Assembly: GCF_000607165.1 (NCBI RefSeq)
Contig: NZ_JFZG01000024.1
Coordinates: 434,001-498,000 of the forward strand
Direction of reading: 5' to 3'
DNA: 64,000 nt
DNA from: Ralstonia pickettii
Lineage (GTDB): Bacteria; Pseudomonadota; Gammaproteobacteria; Burkholderiales; Burkholderiaceae
How positions within the stretch are numbered: the first letter of the stretch is position 1; the number at the start of each line of letters is the position of its first letter. The position numbers and the translations under genes were made by a program. Under the pieces are notes generated by a model. It saw nothing but the letters and a program-made list of their open reading frames with translations. It did not search any database and was not told where the DNA came from. Below, piece by piece: positions 42,248-49,762 of this stretch.

Positions 42248-43395
42248 GTGCCGTCCAACGTCGGGCGACGCTGCCCGAGACTGGCGCTGCCGAACCCGAG
42301 GTGTTGATGCGCGTGGTGAACCGCGTTGCCGTCATCACCTTGAACCGGCCGGCAGCCCTGAATGCGCTGTCGCACGGCATGGTGCGCCAGTTGGCGACGC
42401 TGCTGGAGCAATGCCGCCACGATGACGGCATCGTCGCGCTGGTGCTGCGCGGTGCAGGCCAGAAAGGCTTCTGCGCGGGCGGCGACGTGCGCTCGCTCTA
42501 TCAGCTTGCGCAGCAGGGCCGCATGGATGGCGACGACGGCTGGCTGCAGTTCTTTATCGACGAATACCGGCTCGACTACGCGCTGCATCAATTCCCGAAA
42601 CCCATCGTGGCGCTGATGGACGGCATCACCATGGGCGGGGGCATGGGCCTGGGGCAGGCCGCACGCCTGCGTGTCGTGACCGAGCGCACGAAGATGGCGA
42701 TGCCGGAGACGCGCATCGGCTTTCTGCCCGACGTGGGCGCCACGCGCTTTTTGAGCGTGATGTCGCCCGAGCTTGAGCTGTATGTCGGGCTGACGGGCGT
42801 GACGCTGACGGGTGCTGACGCGCTGCATTGCCACTTGGCCGATGTGTGCGTGCCGGCCGAATGGCTCGCCTCCTTCGAAGAGCGCCTGCAGCGCATGCCG
42901 CACGATGGCGACCTCATGCAGGCCCTGCGCCGCGTGTTCGAACCGCCGTGCAACGTCGTGCCGCACGCGCCGCTGGCACAGGCAACGCCGTGGGTGCTGC
43001 GCTATTTCGATCGCCGTTCGTCGGTCGATCGCATTGTCGCCACGCTGCGCGAGAGCCTGGAGCGCGAGCAGGCCCGCGAGCCGCGCCAATGGCTGCAATC
43101 CACGCTTGATGCAATGACTTCACACTCGCCGACGATGCTGCACGTCACACGCGAAGCGCTGCTGCGCGGTCGGCAGCTGTCACTGGCCGAGTGCTTCCAG
43201 ATGGAGTTGGGCATCGTGGCGCGCGGAATCCAGGACGGCGATTTCTGTGAAGGCGTGCGTGCGCATCTGGTAGACAAGGATCACCGCCCCGGCTGGGCGC
43301 CGGCAACGCTGCCACAGGTGCGGCCGGAGCGGGTGCGGCATTTTCTGACGTCGCCTTGGCGGACGCAGGCGCATCCGTTGGCGGGGCTTGGTTGA
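42244..43395 (+). CDS. 3-Hydroxyisobutyryl-CoA hydrolase
   Basis: A 383-residue crotonase-superfamily hydrolase, longer than hydratases. Blocks GFCAGGDVRSLYQLA, GITMGGGMGLGQAA and MPETRIGFLPDVGATRFLS are those of 3-hydroxyisobutyryl-CoA hydrolases, including the conserved Glu and Asp (PETxIGFxPDVGA). It releases free 3-hydroxyisobutyrate for MmsB. It is the last gene of the operon; a GGCGCATG / CATGCGCC hairpin lies at 43412-43432 but has no T-run. Confidence 0.9.
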   Translation: MSAVQRRATLPETGAAEPEVLMRVVNRVAVITLNRPAALNALSHGMVRQLATLLEQCRHDDGIVALVLRGAGQKGFCAGGDVRSLYQLAQQGRMDGDDGWLQFFIDEYRLDYALHQFPKPIVALMDGITMGGGMGLGQAARLRVVTERTKMAMPETRIGFLPDVGATRFLSVMSPELELYVGLTGVTLTGADALHCHLADVCVPAEWLASFEERLQRMPHDGDLMQALRRVFEPPCNVVPHAPLAQATPWVLRYFDRRSSVDRIVATLRESLEREQAREPRQWLQSTLDAMTSHSPTMLHVTREALLRGRQLSLAECFQMELGIVARGIQDGDFCEGVRAHLVDKDHRPGWAPATLPQVRPERVRHFLTSPWRTQAHPLAGLG

Positions 43396-43603
43396 GCGTG
43401 GCAAGTGAAGGGGCGCATGGGTGACATGCGCCGCGCTGGAGACGACGCATCCAGTTGCAGACGCATACGCAGATCGGGTTGAAGCCGGGTTGAATTCTCC
43501 GCCTGCCAACCCGCATGGCAGCTAGGTTTGGTGCCGTGCGTCAGATGGTTGTCACAATCGCCGTGCTTACTGGATGGATGCTTTGCCACCCCAGGAGGCT
43601 TCC

Positions 43604-45373
43604 ATGGCGACATCCGTCGATTCATTTCAGGTGAAGGTGTATCAGGGCGACAGCGCGGTGCTGTTCGCCTTTGATGTGGCCGATGCAGACCGCGCCGATC
43701 TGGCCGGTTTTGCCATCCAGTGCACACCGCAGGGCGGGGCGCCATATTGGGTGCCCAACCGCTTGACGTTCGACACGCCCATCCATGCAGATGCGCCGCT
43801 GAAGGCCGGCAAGTATGCCGATTCCATCGACGCGCCGTTTCAGTCGTTCCACTGGGTTCACTTTCCGCCGCATGAGGCTGCTCAGCTCAGCTACACCGTG
43901 CACGCGCGTTACTTTGCGTCGGCGAACCCCGTGCAACTGGAGACGCGCGCCACGCGCACGGTGGCTGTAACGCTGCAGCAGCCAATGAGCGATTGGGCCA
44001 CCGTGGGCATGGTGCGTGGCTATGTGTCGTCGCAGGCGTTCATCGATCACTACGGCGGCAACACGGCGCTGGCGCCAGAGAAGCGCGCGCAGACAAAATC
44101 GCCGCTGCTGTACGACACGCAGCCGTATCAGAACAAGTACGCCTACCTGGGCGCCACGGGCCGCCGCCTCATCATCGATCTACTGAACCAGTGCAAGGCA
44201 TCCGACGGCTACGGCATCGACGTGCTGGCCTATGACCTGGACGAGCCGGACATCATCCGTGCCATTGCGTGGCTTGCGCAAAACGGCCGCAAGGTCCGCG
44301 TGATTCAGGACAACTACGTCAGCACCGGCGCCAACCCGGCGGGCCACGGCACCGACAACGCGTTTGAGACGCAGGCCGCTGAATACTTCACGCAGGCTGG
44401 CGCGGAGGTCCGCCGCACGCACCTTGCACGCTTCCAGCACCACAAGGCGATCCTGCTGCGCGATGCTGGCGGCAAGCCGGTGCGCGTGCTTGCGGGCTCG
44501 GCCAATTTCTCGCTGCGCGGGTTGTACGTGCAGGCCAACAGCGTGCTGGTGTTCGGGCAAGACGCCGCGCAACTCTACGCGCAGGTGTTCGAGCATCTAT
44601 GGGGGTTGATCGGCCAGCATGGTGAAGACGCCGCCGGCAGCCGCAAGGTGGCGGCTGCCTTCCGTGCCGATGCGCTGGCTGCCAACTGGAAGGCCGTGCC
44701 GCAAGGCAGCACGCCGCGTGCGCGCTTCGGCTTCTCGCCGCATCAGACCGACGCGTTGCTGACGGAGGCGGCTGACCGCGTGAAGGGCGCGCTGTCCTCC
44801 GTGCTGTTTGCGGTGATGGCTACCGACGGCGGCGGCGAGATGCTGACCACGCTCGAACAGGTGGTGCCGCACAAGGCTGGGCTGCTCTCGCTGGGCGTGA
44901 TCGACAAACAGGGCGGTGTGGATGCCTTCGCCCCCGGCCGCGACGTGCCGTCTCAAACCGTGTCGTTCGCGTATTTGAAGGACGAAGCGCCTGCGCCGTT
45001 CAAGCAGGAGGTGGATGCCGGCACCGGCCAGCACATCCACCACAAGTTTGTCGTGTGCGATTTCAATGGCGACGAGCCGGTCGTGTTCTGCGGCTCGTCC
45101 AACCTGTCGAAGGGCGGCGAGGAACAGAACGGCGACAGCCTGATCGCCATCTATGACCCCGCCATCGTCACGGCCTATGCGATCGAGGCCATCCGCCTGT
45201 TCGACCATTACCGGTTCCGCGCAGGGGAATCCAAGGCCACAGCCGACAAGCCGCTGGTGCTGAAGACGACCAGCGCATGGGCCGACCCGTACTACGATCC
45301 GCAGAACATCAAGTTCACGGAGCGCACGCTGTTCGCCAAGTCCGGCACGGCCCAGGAGGCTGCTGTCGCGTGA
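43604..45373 (+). CDS. Phospholipase D-fold protein with two HKD motifs
   Basis: A 589-residue cytoplasmic-looking protein starting after AGGAGG. The first HKD motif is H279-x-K281...D287 (HHKAILLRD) with GSANFS downstream; the second is H479-x-K481...D486 (HHKFVVCD) with GSSNLSKGGEEQNGDS. Both catalytic sets are complete. The first 130 residues (VYQGDSAVLFAFDVADADRA, then WVHFPPHEAAQLSYTVHARY) look like a separate beta-rich domain. The family contains phospholipases, nucleases and transphosphatidylases. No signal peptide or partner gene is seen. Substrate unknown. Confidence 0.82.
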   Translation: MATSVDSFQVKVYQGDSAVLFAFDVADADRADLAGFAIQCTPQGGAPYWVPNRLTFDTPIHADAPLKAGKYADSIDAPFQSFHWVHFPPHEAAQLSYTVHARYFASANPVQLETRATRTVAVTLQQPMSDWATVGMVRGYVSSQAFIDHYGGNTALAPEKRAQTKSPLLYDTQPYQNKYAYLGATGRRLIIDLLNQCKASDGYGIDVLAYDLDEPDIIRAIAWLAQNGRKVRVIQDNYVSTGANPAGHGTDNAFETQAAEYFTQAGAEVRRTHLARFQHHKAILLRDAGGKPVRVLAGSANFSLRGLYVQANSVLVFGQDAAQLYAQVFEHLWGLIGQHGEDAAGSRKVAAAFRADALAANWKAVPQGSTPRARFGFSPHQTDALLTEAADRVKGALSSVLFAVMATDGGGEMLTTLEQVVPHKAGLLSLGVIDKQGGVDAFAPGRDVPSQTVSFAYLKDEAPAPFKQEVDAGTGQHIHHKFVVCDFNGDEPVVFCGSSNLSKGGEEQNGDSLIAIYDPAIVTAYAIEAIRLFDHYRFRAGESKATADKPLVLKTTSAWADPYYDPQNIKFTERTLFAKSGTAQEAAVA

Positions 45374-45400
45374 TCGGTTCGGGCAGCGGTTCGTGCGCCG

Positions 45401-46894
45401 TCATACGCGCCGCTGCCGGTCGCCCCACCAGGCATCGCGCAGGCGGCGCTTGGCGATCTTGCCGTTGTCGTCGCGCGGCAGCGCTGTGGTGAACTCGATC
45501 TGGCGCGGGATCTTGAAGCCGGCAATCTGGCCGCGCAGCCACTCGATCACGGGCTCGGCCAGCAGGTCTTGGCGTTCGGTCTGGACCACCGCGACAAGGC
45601 GCTCGCCGTACTCGTCGTCGGGCACGCCAAAGACAGCGCAGTCGACCACATCGGGGTGTCGCAGTAGCGCATGTTCGATCTCGGCCGGGTAGATGTTCAC
45701 GCCGCCCGAGATGACCATGTCCGATGCGCGGTCGCACACATACAGATAGCCGTCCGCGTCGAGGTAGCCCATGTCGCCGAGCGTAACGAGGCCATCGCGC
45801 TCTATCTTGCCGCGTGCTTCGTCGTTGCCGCGGTAGGTGAAATCGGGGTAGGCGGGCTGGTGGCTGTAGATCAGGCCGATCTCGCCGGTGGGGCAGGGCG
45901 TGCCGTCTTCGCGCAGGATGCGCACGCGCGCGTCGCACACCGGGCGGCCAGCGCTGCCGGGGCGGGCGGCGGCGTCGCGCGGGTCCATCACGGTGATCAT
46001 GCCGGTCTCGCTCGATGCATACGTTTCGTATATGACGGGGCCGAGCCAGTCGATCATCTTGCGCTTGATCTCGGGCGCGCATGGGGCGCCGGTGGAGGCC
46101 ACGAAGCGCAGTGAAGACAGGTCGTACCGGCTGCGTTCTTCGTCCGTCAACTTGAGCAGGCGCACATACATGATGGGCACGAGGTAGACGGTGTCGATGC
46201 GGTAGCGCTCGATCTGCTCCAGCACGCGCAGCGCGTCAAAGCGCGCGTTCAACACCAGCAGCTCCGCCATCTGCGCGGCTTGCTGAGCGAAGAGGCTCGG
46301 CGCGCTGTGATAGAGCGGCGCGGGCACCAGCGCACGGCAGCCCGGCACGATACCGAACGTGGCGGCCACCACGGCCCGTGCCTTCTGCAGGTGCGCGTCG
46401 AGCTGATCGAGCGGCACGGCCTGGCGCACGACACCCTTGGGCCGGCCGGTGGTGCCCGACGTATAGGCCATGTGCCCCCGCGGAGAAACCAGTGGCCCGT
46501 CGTACGGCGTCTGCAGCGCGAGCCAGTTGGCATAGCCGTCAGCGCGGTCGGTGCCTTCGGCATCCACGCGAAGCAGTTGCACGTGGGCCGGCAGCATCGG
46601 TTCCACCGCATCCACGAGGTCGCGATGGCCGATCAACACCTTGGCGCCGGAATCGCGCACGAGAAACTCCACCTCGGCCGGCGTGAAGTGCCAGTTGATG
46701 GGGCAGAAGTAGCACCCGGCGATGCGGCAGGCGTGCATCACGTCGATGTAGGCAGGCGCATTGCGCAGCAGCACGCCGATCACGTCGCCCTCCTGCACGC
46801 CCATGCGGCGCAGGCCACCCGCAAGGGCGGAACCCCGAGCGAGCAGCGTATCGGCATCGGTCGGGCGATCGTCGAAGATCAGGCTGGCGGTCAT
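45401..46894 (-). CDS. AMP-forming acyl-CoA synthetase
   Basis: A 497-residue ANL-superfamily ligase. ATP motif MAYTSGTTGRPKGVVR, core YETYASSETGMITVMD, hinge GDMGYLDADGYLYVCDRASD and C-domain lysine region in ALPRDDNGKIAKRRLRD. It resembles fatty-acyl or crotonobetaine/carnitine-type CoA ligases; the acid is not evident. The start follows a CAGGAG site. Its 3' end is 27 bp from the convergent phospholipase D-like gene. No pathway partners are adjacent. Confidence 0.85.
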   Translation of the reverse strand: MTASLIFDDRPTDADTLLARGSALAGGLRRMGVQEGDVIGVLLRNAPAYIDVMHACRIAGCYFCPINWHFTPAEVEFLVRDSGAKVLIGHRDLVDAVEPMLPAHVQLLRVDAEGTDRADGYANWLALQTPYDGPLVSPRGHMAYTSGTTGRPKGVVRQAVPLDQLDAHLQKARAVVAATFGIVPGCRALVPAPLYHSAPSLFAQQAAQMAELLVLNARFDALRVLEQIERYRIDTVYLVPIMYVRLLKLTDEERSRYDLSSLRFVASTGAPCAPEIKRKMIDWLGPVIYETYASSETGMITVMDPRDAAARPGSAGRPVCDARVRILREDGTPCPTGEIGLIYSHQPAYPDFTYRGNDEARGKIERDGLVTLGDMGYLDADGYLYVCDRASDMVISGGVNIYPAEIEHALLRHPDVVDCAVFGVPDDEYGERLVAVVQTERQDLLAEPVIEWLRGQIAGFKIPRQIEFTTALPRDDNGKIAKRRLRDAWWGDRQRRV

Positions 46895-47549
46895 GCGTGG
46901 CTCCTGGGGCAAGGTCTGGGTGTCTCGATTGAGCTGCGGCTCTTCATCGAGCATGCCGGACGAATCCATAGTGAACAATCCGCCTCGGAATCGTCACACT
47001 GGTGAATGCCATTGAACAACGAAGAGTCTTTTGTCGATCCGCGCCGACGTGGCTATCCTCGCTCGGTGCGATCTCCTCTCCACATATCCCTTGCGGCTGT
47101 GGGGTCGAATGTGTAGCCTATGCCACAAAATTACACATGCCTATAAGAAGAAGTCGATTGAAGACGGGGGAAGCCGGGCGTTGACGGGCCGGCTGATCGC
47201 TCCTCTCACCTACGCCAATCCGATTGCCCGGCGTAAGGGCATCACCCGAAGGTAAGGGCCGATGGCCGGGCAGCCCTCACTGGGCGTGCTTCACGCATGC
47301 GCCAGACCGAGTTCGACGCGCTGCGGCACAACGGCCGTCGGCCGCAAGTGCTGACGCGTGAGGTGTCTCCAGACGCTGCTTCCGGCGGCGAATTGGCGCA
47401 GTGTGTCGAGCCTCTCCGGACTCCACTTCAATGGCTTCCTTGTGGTTCATCCCCAACGGCGGACAGCCGCAGGCGGGATGTGGCCTTGCCGCGCGCCGTG
47501 CATGTCGTCGCGGGCATCGTTCTGAATGCGGTCACCCGCTAGGCTCCAA
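46895..47549. other. Long intergenic region without a supported gene
   Basis: About 650 bp between the divergent acyl-CoA ligase and lipoprotein genes. Short open frames occur (for example around 47031-47255 and 47297-47542) but have no ribosome binding site or recognisable peptide. A short palindromic stretch GGCCGATGGCC lies near 47258. I see no transposase, tRNA or riboswitch. Promoters for both flanking genes should lie here. Confidence 0.5.
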
Positions 47550-48914
47550 ATGAGCGTGTCGAAAAAGTTGTCATGCAGGCTCCTGGCTTGCTGTGTTGTC
47601 CTGGGTCTGTCCGGTTGCGGCGGAGGGGATGGAGGCAGCACGACCGGTGCGGCCTCTGTCGGGTCTACGGGGCCTGCAGCACCTGCGGCGCAGGGCTACT
47701 CCATTGGTGGTTCGGTGACGGGCCTATCCGGAACCTTGGTGCTCCAGAACAATGCGGGCGATGATCTCGCCATCGGCGCCAACGGCACGTTCACCTTTGC
47801 GACCAGCGTATCGAACGGCGCGGCGTATCACGTCATCGTATCGACGCAGCCGGCCACGCAGACGTGCACGGTGACCAATGGCGCCGGTACGGTTTCGGCC
47901 GCCAATGTCGGCAACGTGTCGGTGGTCTGTGCAACGAATGCATTCAAGGTTGGCGGTTCGGTTTCAGGGTTGAACGGCACCGTTGTCCTGCAGAACAACG
48001 GCACGGATAGCCTGAGCCGTTCCGCCAACGGCGCTTTCGCTTTTGCTACGCCGGTGGCAGAAGGCGGTGGATTCTCAGTCACGGTGCAGACCAATCCGGC
48101 TGGGCAGAGCTGCAGCATTGCCAACGGCGCCGGCTCCATGGGCGCGGGCGACATCAGCACCGTTGCGGTCACCTGCACGACCAACGCCTATACCGTGGGC
48201 GGAACGCTCTCGGGTTTGAGCAGCGGCACGGTCGTGCTCAAGAACAATGGCGGGGACAGCCTCTCGCGCAGCGTCAACGGCGCCTTCACGTTTCCATCGG
48301 CGGTGGCCTACGGCAATCCCTACGTCGTGACCGTATCGAGCCAGCCCGCCAATCTGAGCTGCCCGGTGGTGAATGGATCAGGAACCGTCAGCGGCAACGT
48401 GACGAACGTCTCCGTGTCCTGTTCGTGCGCGTCGGGGTATAGCGCTTGCAGCGGTGCATGCGTCGATACCGCAACGGATTCGAACAATTGCGGAGGTTGC
48501 GGCGTGGTCTGCCCCGCCAACTTCGCCTGCAGTTCCGGCGGCTGCGTTGCCGCAGCTTGCACGACGACTGCCGACTGTACAGGCGGGGATGTCTGCCTGG
48601 GCGGCACATGCCAGGCGCCCACCTGCACCGATGGCGTGCGCGATGGTCAGGAAACCGACGTGGATTGCGGGGGCGGAACCTGCACAACATGTGCGGTGGG
48701 CCAACATTGCGCCGCGCCGGGCGATTGTGGGTCGGGCGTGTGCACGTCGGGCATCTGCCAGGGGCCGACGTGTTTCGATGGCGTCAAGAACGGTGTTGAA
48801 ACGGACGTGGATTGCGGTGGAGGCGGATCCTGCCAAAAGTGCGCCGCCGGCCAGACCTGCCTGGTTTCAAGCGACTGCCAGTCCGGCGTGTGCACGGCCG
48901 GGTTCTGCCACTGA
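47550..48914 (+). CDS. Repeat-containing, cysteine-rich lipoprotein
   Basis: A 454-residue lipoprotein: signal with lipobox LSGC (C23), then a Gly/Ser/Thr linker. Three tandem repeats of about 80 residues (50-130, 131-212, 213-291) each have GGS-GL-GT-VLQNN, D-LS-S-NG-F-F and two cysteines about 20 apart. A C-terminal region (291-453) holds 29 cysteines: a [19 protein letters not shown] block, then two repeats of the type [16 protein letters not shown]...C..C...GQxC. Such ETDVDCGG modules are best known from myxobacterial surface proteins. Likely outer-membrane anchored and exposed. The DsbA-like gene 38 bp downstream is probably its folding partner. Confidence 0.8.
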
Positions 48915-48952
48915 CCCGCGAGTCCTCCATCCACCTGTATGCAAGGAAAGAC

Positions 48953-49687
48953 ATGAAGTTCTGGTCAGCCATCTCCGTTTGCGTCGGCAGCGCGCTCTTT
49001 TCCTGCGCTGCGTATGCCGATGCGCCCATGACCCAGCAACAAGGCGAGGCCATCCTCAACGAGTTGCGAGAGATCCACCAACTGTTGGCCCGCCAGGCCG
49101 CGCCTGCAGCCCCGGGCACTGCCGCGCCGGCACGCACGCTGTCCGTCAAGGCGCCGGCAAAGCATGTGTTGGGTAAGGCGAATGCGCCGATCACGTTGGT
49201 CGCCTTTACCGATTTCCAGTGCCCGTCCTGCGCGCGCTTTGAAGCCACCACATTTCCCGAGCTCAAGAAGAAGTACATCGATACGGGCAAGATGCGCTAC
49301 GTCTTGCGAGACGTCCCGCTCGACTTCCATCCCTTCGCGATCAACGCGGCGCAGTCGGTGCGCTGCGCGGGTGATCAGAGCAAGTATTGGGAAATGAAGG
49401 ATCTGGTGTTCAAGAACCAGAGCCGGATCGACACCGCTGCACTGGCGTCATACGCCCAAGACCTGGGGCTCGACGCCGGCCAGTATCAGAAGTGCATGGC
49501 GGACAACAAGTATCTTCCAGAGATCAACGCGGATAACCAGTACGCGCATTCCGTGGGCATTTCCGGCACCCCGTCGTTTGTGGTCGGCAGGGTGGTGGAT
49601 GGCATGGTGCAGGGTCGGCTGATCGTCGGCGCGCAAGGTCTGAGTGTGTTCGAGCACGCGATCGAGGAGATGCTCGCCAAGCCGTGA
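48953..49687 (+). CDS. DsbA-family periplasmic thiol:disulfide oxidoreductase
   Basis: A 244-residue exported protein: signal peptide ending CAAYA-D, a helical/Ala-Pro linker (25-65), then a thioredoxin fold with active site C90-P-S-C93 in TDFQCPSCARFE. The cis-proline loop is SGTPSFVVG. The order of helices and FRDVPL-type blocks (RDVPLDFHPFA) fit DsbA/DsbG-like proteins of the DSBA family. It follows the Cys-rich lipoprotein gene on the same strand by 38 bp, so a dedicated role in oxidising that substrate is likely. A housekeeping DsbA is expected elsewhere in the genome. Confidence 0.85.
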   Translation: MKFWSAISVCVGSALFSCAAYADAPMTQQQGEAILNELREIHQLLARQAAPAAPGTAAPARTLSVKAPAKHVLGKANAPITLVAFTDFQCPSCARFEATTFPELKKKYIDTGKMRYVLRDVPLDFHPFAINAAQSVRCAGDQSKYWEMKDLVFKNQSRIDTAALASYAQDLGLDAGQYQKCMADNKYLPEINADNQYAHSVGISGTPSFVVGRVVDGMVQGRLIVGAQGLSVFEHAIEEMLAKP

Positions 49688-49762
49688 GGCGGCGGGCAGC
49701 GCGCCAAGCGAGGCCCAGGCCGGCTTGTGCCCCTGGGCCGCCTTCAGGCACAATGCCCAACC

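Follow-up and report, generated by a model that had tools for sequence, protein, structure and literature searches.

On the forward strand of a 64,000-nucleotide stretch of Ralstonia pickettii DNA (hereafter the window), two neighbouring genes appear, on balance, to form a folding cassette, in which a stalked, oligomeric oxidase/isomerase of the DsbA fold would serve a very Cys-rich lipoprotein. What can be read from the sequence is the anatomy of the two proteins, their fixed adjacency in four genomes and the recurrence of the pairing in other lineages. Accessory Dsb enzymes encoded together with their substrate are already familiar (SrgA, DsbL, BcfH), and the new element is that, in three phyla, one stalked lineage recurs next to exported proteins that are very rich in Cys and differ in architecture. 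No description of such a pair was found in the open-licence full-text literature (most subscription papers lie outside this scope, and the negative result accordingly carries little weight).

The first gene (ATG at 47550 to stop at 48914, + strand), described from its open reading frame, Pfam, a structure model and PDB fold matches, encodes 454 residues laid out as a signal peptide, a low-complexity linker of Gly, Ser, Ala and Pro, three repeats and a Cys-rich tail. The lipobox, read by eye rather than called by a predictor, is LSGC at residues 20-23 and ends in Cys23. Three tandem repeats of 80 residues had been claimed in the original prediction, of which the number stands and the spacing does not, the repeat motifs (at 52, 134 and 216) being 82 residues apart. 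Every repeat has one Cys pair separated by 20-21 residues (106/127, 188/209 and 271/291), and for this reason C291 most likely completes the pair of repeat 3 rather than being the first Cys of the tail. The Cys-rich tail itself was likewise recovered, with a corrected count: 29 Cys fall in the last 164 residues and 28 in the last 163, instead of 29 in 163. The tail proper, delimited by Cys positions and alignment (residues 293-454; 48426..48911, + strand), holds 28 Cys, from C293 to C453, within 162 residues. In our own division these are distributed as 8+4+8+8, that is, an 8-Cys module resembling by eye the Stig1/MXAN_6577 types, a 4-Cys module and two 8-Cys ETDVDCGG modules. Once the signal-peptide Cys (9, 14 and 15) and the lipidated Cys23 are removed, 34 Cys are left, an even number, so that up to 17 disulfides are possible.

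DUF4369 (PF14289) matches the repeats in two stretches with 34.3 bits against a curated cut-off of 25. The lipoprotein has no Stig1 match in Pfam and stays under the cut-off of the MXAN_6577-like NCBIfam model NF041328 (18.3 against 100 bits). The style of the tail modules is like that of the MXAN_6577-like proteins, and of Cys-rich proteins with a 12-letter protein motif, but the lipoprotein differs from the former in its stalk of DUF4369-type repeats and in a score far below their cut-off. Structure prediction, which had been proposed with the original prediction, was performed from 9 sequences and gave three confident beta-sandwich repeats (block pLDDT 88-96) and a less certain tail (48-85). 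The PDB matches of this model are mostly pilin and Cna-B-type surface-protein stalk domains, with low whole-chain TM-scores, and a sequence search against solved structures returned a single, meaningless match (E 0.053).

The lipoprotein had been said to be followed, 38 bp later, by a DsbA-family gene with a CPSC active site, and these coordinates hold exactly. The gap (48915..48952, + strand) carries a Shine-Dalgarno-like AAGGAAAG ahead of the DsbA ATG and shows neither a stable hairpin (fold z-score 0.64) nor a terminator-like site; the two genes would be co-transcribed, as far as this arrangement indicates. Sigma-70-like promoters were not found between 47000 and 49900 (0 against 0.5 expected), and a hairpin 3' of the DsbA gene (49688-49760) is not clearly above shuffled sequences (z -1.12, 29 of 200 as good). 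The pair is flanked by genes for an AMP-binding enzyme and a chloride channel (Pfam), and its composition is unremarkable, with 64.2% and 61.4% GC for the two genes and 64.8% for the window.

The second gene (ATG at 48953 to stop at 49687, + strand; described from Pfam, a model and column counts) encodes a thiol-disulfide oxidoreductase of 244 residues, composed of an apparent signal peptide, a heptad helix (28-48), a linker (49-60) and a Thioredoxin_4/DSBA domain. Its membership in the DsbA-fold family is given by curated cut-offs (PF13462, 112.4 bits against 23.2; PF01323, 59 bits against 25.6), by the CxxC site and by the Thr-Pro loop; the enzyme scores below the cut-off of NF041057, the Rcas_1661 family thioredoxin-like (seleno)lipoprotein, which among the named NCBIfam families is nearest to it (130.7 against 190 bits), as do 8 of its relatives (114.9-128.3 bits). 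The residues concerned are the active site C90PSC93, a second Cys pair (C138/C181) and Thr206 followed by Pro207, which we take from the fold to be in cis. Across 80 family rows, namely the window and 79 loci (L050, with a stop inside the matched stretch, was left out here and from the tree below), C90, C93, T206 and P207 are present in 80/80, C138 in 80/80 and C181 in 79/80. The Ser of CPSC is private to the window enzyme, that position being Phe in 60/80 rows and Tyr in 19/80, and the three nearest orthologues read CPYC. The amphipathic character of the N-terminal helix is conserved as well: hydrophobic residues occupy position 34 in 76/76 rows, 38 in 70/76, 41 in 74/77 and 45 in 70/78, which is the 4-3-4 spacing of a heptad. 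The monomer model (mean pLDDT 80.9) shows this helix at 28-48 with moderate confidence (block pLDDT 53, 69 and 57), followed by a low-confidence linker and a confident DsbA domain.

This layout suggests, in place of a simple oxidase of the DsbA type, an oligomeric isomerase/foldase like ScsC. The ScsC proteins of Proteus mirabilis and Caulobacter (4xvw, 5id4, 5idr, 7rgv) have a helical stalk, a flexible linker and a DsbA-type domain, a layout that the helix and low-confidence linker of the enzyme model may share; they match this model, in some cases over nearly the full length, at 16-21% identity. ScsC belongs to the Scs copper-tolerance locus, whose partners are absent beside the enzyme, the neighbours here being the lipoprotein, the AMP-binding enzyme and the chloride channel. 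In PmScsC, the stalk trimerises three heads via the flexible linker, its removal turns the isomerase into an oxidase, and the isomerase activity needs both stalk and linker (PMC5524982). An oligomeric oxidase/isomerase is judged the most likely identity of the enzyme because the presumed substrate has 28 crowded Cys.

A monomeric DsbA-type oxidase, recycled by DsbB, might instead merely introduce the disulfides of the lipoprotein and leave the correction of their pairing to a housekeeping isomerase; we regard this as possible but doubtful. The best fold and profile matches of the enzyme point that way, since they are led by Wolbachia alpha-DsbA1 (3f4r) and C. diphtheriae DsbA/TsdA (7unn), the closest solved catalytic domains (27-31% identity), with ScsC ranked behind and BcfH also included. 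So do the CPxC site and the second conserved Cys pair, which alpha-DsbA1 likewise has and in which C138/C181 would correspond to the C97/C146 named in the title of PDB 3f4t. Two features speak against it, however: the heptad helix, conserved in nearly all 80 rows, has no evident use to a monomer, and a Thr precedes the cis-Pro in 80/80 rows, as in DsbC/ScsC-type enzymes. For alpha-DsbA1 and TsdA we know of no Cys-rich neighbour.

The coupling of the two genes was evaluated in 398 Burkholderiaceae genomes, using the lipoprotein tail at E <= 1e-6 and the enzyme at E <= 1e-30. The tail was matched in 6/398 genomes and the enzyme in 4/398; the four full-length lipoproteins (G000, G015, G002 and G086) are found in exactly the four enzyme-bearing genomes, with the DsbA gene directly downstream in 4/4, and the pair is retained across about 70-95% identity. 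The two-gene unit that had been predicted is thereby upheld, and the situation that would have spoken against it, a lipoprotein mostly without a neighbouring DsbA, was not found, nor does any of the 398 genomes have the enzyme (at that cut-off) without a full lipoprotein. The other two tail matches (G245 and G117) belong to proteins of another kind, which carry one or two ETDVDCGG modules and repeats resembling, by eye, YVTN beta-propellers; 1.5 kb was read on both sides of each, and no DsbA lies there. Within the genus the close enzyme is present in 3/16 genomes (a fourth match, in G011, is remote, with E 6e-7), and the cassette occurs in 1 other of the 398 genomes outside it. As G086 has nearly the same sequence as locus L010 of Paraburkholderia kururiensis, a non-pathogenic soil species, it was not counted as an additional lineage, and neither was G002, which probably is L009. 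Outside the family, the Cys tail at E <= 1e-6 recovers the window genome alone among 398 Pseudomonadota genomes, so this reverse search yields no statistics.

How did the pair come to be there? The stretches beside the chloride-channel gene in 13 sister genomes of the genus set the extent of the cassette between conserved flanks at 47022..49735. Four of the 13 (G014, G007, G003 and G012) have an empty site, the flanks at 47021 and 49736-49740 being only 121-185 bp apart; five (G001, G006, G008, G005 and G009) carry 5.0-5.9 kb of other DNA there (read in G001 and G009), which in G001 encodes a molybdopterin-dependent oxidoreductase, its [2Fe-2S] subunit and a cytochrome c (Pfam); two (G015 and G002) have the cassette at the same site, within a single alignment that takes in the flanks (90.2% and 83.5% identity); and in the remaining two (G010 and G004) the upstream flank is unmatched. 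In P. kururiensis (L010) the cassette aligns and its surroundings are unmatched to the window, save for 395 bp that correspond to a distant part; two more matches are repeats inside the cassette. Because of the same-site alignment with flanks in the genus, the variable locus and the other surroundings in P. kururiensis, the cassette is old in the genus and has a history of horizontal movement or repeated loss, not of recent capture. The acquisition from another lineage that had been suggested is supported in part, by the variable locus, the patchy occurrence and the different setting in P. kururiensis, but within the genus the cassette is old. Plasmid origin was considered and rejected: of 72,556 plasmid records 1792 match, all at less than 60% identity and 12 over 80% of the query length, and there is no plasmid-borne orthologue among them.

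To sample the wider lineage, 23 enzyme sequences were searched against species genomes; this gave at least 572 confirmed stretches, the best 80 of which were used. Genes at these loci were called as longest open frames, not by a gene finder, and a gene was considered Cys-rich if it had at least 14 Cys in some 160 residues, a threshold set after a first look and then complemented with 10 and 18. An upstream gene was called at 78 of the best 80 loci (none at L019 and L052) and is co-directional in 54. It is both co-directional and Cys-rich at 12/78 (L009, L010, L011, L034, L038, L039, L042, L045, L046, L057, L060 and L068), against 4/890 for the other genes of the same loci, one of these four being a second Cys-rich gene of L034. 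With thresholds of 10 and 18 there are still 12 Cys-rich genes among the 54 co-directional upstream ones, against 15/890 and 2/890 elsewhere. Two borderline loci (L023 and L041, with 9 and 10 Cys per 160 residues) and L025, whose Cys-rich upstream gene lies on the other strand, were left out of the 12. The Fisher p of 4.6e-11 is not to be taken literally, because the rows are related and the threshold was chosen after the first look; even so, a pairing by chance is unlikely. The 12 loci belong to Pseudomonadota (7, namely two Burkholderiaceae, Sideroxydans, Thiodiazotropha, Granulosicoccaceae and two alphaproteobacteria), Nitrospinota (2) and Acidobacteriota (3).

On a quick tree of the enzyme, with SH-aLRT support only, the Cys-rich-neighbour label needs at least 9 changes, 5 of them forced by starred branches, so the pairing has been gained or lost repeatedly, although it is clustered (shuffle mean 12.2, 2 of 500 shuffles as low). 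The word dedicated suits this cassette but not the lineage as a whole, in which 66/78 upstream slots were not counted as Cys-rich. In the Gallionella clade, the nearest to that of the window, 7/8 loci have an upstream gene, none of them Cys-rich and four ABC-transporter-like by eye; at least 11 acidobacterial loci share, as a pattern, one common kind of Cys-poor upstream protein; and, again by eye, the upstream gene is PEP-CTERM-like at two loci and encodes giant, Cys-poor, surface-like proteins at two Nitrospinota loci. With so many relatives lacking a Cys-rich neighbour, the enzyme must have work without such partners.

The partners themselves were compared by Pfam for 9 of the 12 upstream proteins plus that of L023, which had no match (L057 was left out; the partners of L046, L057 and L068 are apparently incomplete at the N-terminus). 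At L009 and L010 the partner is orthologous to the window lipoprotein. The others present cadherin-like domains (L011), collagen, TSP1 and MopE (L034 and L042), MopE and Stig1 (L039 and L045), EGF and TSP1 (L046), collagen, CBM96 and Stig1 (L060) or MopE (L068, and only below cut-off in L038), and no N-terminal architecture is common to the partners across loci. In Nitrospina, L034 has two tandem Cys-rich genes, 53% identical, between a chlorite dismutase gene and the enzyme gene, while four related loci (L056, L037, L064 and L059) lack Cys-rich genes at this place, so that the chlorite dismutase gene adjoins the enzyme gene. This DsbA locus of Nitrospina hence occurs in two states, and its Cys-rich genes have been inserted or lost ahead of a standing enzyme gene.

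These comparisons also bear on whether the two genes are neighbours by history, the DsbA being a general periplasmic enzyme beside which Cys-rich surface genes merely land or survive in variable loci. Most of the DsbA lineage without a Cys-rich neighbour, the Nitrospina locus in its two states and the variability of the window locus within the genus would fit such an account. We consider it unlikely, given that the enrichment is confined to the co-directional upstream slot (12/78, against 1/73 for the downstream slot), that the partner architectures differ between lineages and that the pair is kept in all four Burkholderiaceae despite their divergence.

An additional locus came from searching 398 Pseudomonadota genomes with a wide profile built from 17 diverse relatives, which at E <= 1e-30 gave 88 matches in 87 genomes; the best 30 loci were fetched. 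The only strong match apart from the window is G572 (304 bits, the next having 178), where the gene directly upstream of the enzyme has 28 Cys and matches collagen and MopE. At the DNA level this locus matches none of the 80 loci, and it is a single locus, not a statistic; within the order of G572 the enzyme is found at E <= 1e-55 in 1/78 genomes, G572 itself. Among those best 30 of 88, 28 further loci encode more distant DsbA proteins, nearly all of them longer and with a different N-terminus; at none of these is the upstream gene Cys-rich, the highest content being 5 Cys per 160 residues. No fusion of the enzyme to a Cys-rich protein is apparent by length in 120 of 362 homologues, all of them of at most 300 residues. 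Against the folding cassette stands the fact that the window genome has nine other PF01323 (DSBA-family) matches, which could do the job; no gene with at least 14 Cys per 160 residues occurs in the regions round these nine (maximum 13).

In the folding cassette that we favour, Sec would export the lipoprotein, which would be lipidated at Cys23 and whose three-domain beta-sandwich stalk would present the Cys-rich tail, putatively at the cell surface. The tail would be a string of compact modules with about 14 disulfides, in addition to one disulfide per stalk domain. Its partner would be a soluble periplasmic DsbA-fold oxidoreductase, probably joined into an oligomer by the N-terminal heptad helix, with flexible linkers between the stalk and the catalytic heads. 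This enzyme may oxidise and, chiefly, reshuffle the disulfides of the lipoprotein in transit, a task for which an ordinary vectorial DsbA would serve 28 Cys crowded in 162 residues badly. It is very improbable that copper or zinc is bound by the thiols of the Cys-rich protein and that the partner is a DsbD-fed reductase keeping these thiols reduced, as a metal-resistance or metal-scavenging pair, since, although P. mirabilis ScsC acts in copper tolerance (PMC5524982) and some partners carry the 'putative metal-binding motif' PF11617, the window lipoprotein has no PF11617 match in Pfam, the Cys count per module is even, other partners carry the classical disulfide domains EGF and TSP1, and the flanking genes encode an AMP-binding enzyme and a chloride channel.

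Several known systems are related to this arrangement. SrgA and DsbL/DsbI are accessory DsbA enzymes encoded beside an exported substrate and, like here, the gene of the DsbA paralogue adjoins that of the exported protein served; they are, however, oxidases for substrates with few disulfides, whereas here there are dozens of Cys and interchangeable partners. BcfH of Salmonella (7jve), reportedly a trimer with oxidase and isomerase activity encoded in the bcf fimbrial operon, is also a Dsb-family enzyme of a surface-structure operon, but a fimbrial one, and is 16-18% identical to the enzyme.

The presence of some enzyme relatives beside differently built Cys-rich proteins in distant bacteria hints at a portable cassette of the "protein plus folding helper" kind. 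As a tentative generalisation, in which we place limited though not negligible confidence, there may be a stalked, probably oligomeric DsbA-fold lineage, spread over at least three phyla, many members of which act as folding partners for animal-like surface proteins that are rich in disulfides and interchangeable (with TSP1, EGF, collagen-like, MopE, Stig1 and ETDVDCGG modules); the enzyme gene would stay while the substrate gene is swapped, inserted or duplicated, making up a portable cassette for the Gram-negative display of disulfide-built extracellular modules. To our knowledge, the bacterial folding of extracellular proteins with dozens of crowded Cys has been little studied, and the pair offers a directly testable case, in which the presumed isomerase is encoded next to its substrate in a soil species that can be cultured. 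If this reading is true, the neighbourhood alone would predict the substrates of unnamed Dsb enzymes, the enzyme might be used as a folding helper for disulfide-rich recombinant proteins, and the cassette would help to explain how TSP1-, EGF- and collagen-like proteins are made in the periplasm.

The Cys-rich lipoprotein gene (47550-48914, forward strand) and the DsbA-fold gene downstream of it (48953-49687, forward strand) lie in a locus that is variable in the genus (47022-49735), with a gene for an AMP-binding enzyme on one side and one for a chloride channel on the other, as seen in a comparison with 13 sister genomes. Among the sister genomes read, the interval between these two flanking genes is empty in four of the 13, is occupied by the Cys-rich pair in two and is filled in five by 5.0-5.9 kb of other DNA, which in the two of these five inserts that were read is a molybdopterin oxidoreductase/cytochrome c operon; the upstream flank has no match in the remaining two. 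Further upstream, a gene for a PLD-like protein (43574-45373, matching PF13091) is found in four sister genomes for which the DNA compared extends over that place, and it is missing there from G015 and G002, both of which carry the cassette at the same site as the window and whose alignment jumps from about 43395 to 45401.

The active site of the DsbA is CPSC (49220-49231), with a Ser that is private to the window sequence, that position being held by Phe in 60 and by Tyr in 19 of the 79 other aligned family members; three orthologues have CPYC. Regarding the lipoprotein, its repeat part is matched by three more open frames in the same genome (L003, L004 and L005, on contigs C8 and C24), in which the Cys-rich tail found no match at the thresholds used.

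At the locus L081, some 2 kb downstream from where the DsbA match starts, a 163-aa open frame has 53 cysteines within a span of 160 aa; this frame may have arisen by chance in repetitive sequence. The gammaproteobacterial locus L055 shows a PEP-CTERM-like gene upstream of its DsbA and a 3270-aa frame downstream, the latter with partial likeness (28% over 360 aa, L055:12233-13246) to a Cys-rich protein of the Nitrospina locus L034. Two tandem Cys-rich genes, missing from four other Nitrospina loci, stand in the L034 cluster (L034:5004-10738) between a chlorite dismutase gene, which includes a PCP_red domain, and the DsbA gene; both are of the collagen/TSP1/MopE type, and one of them has EGF domains.
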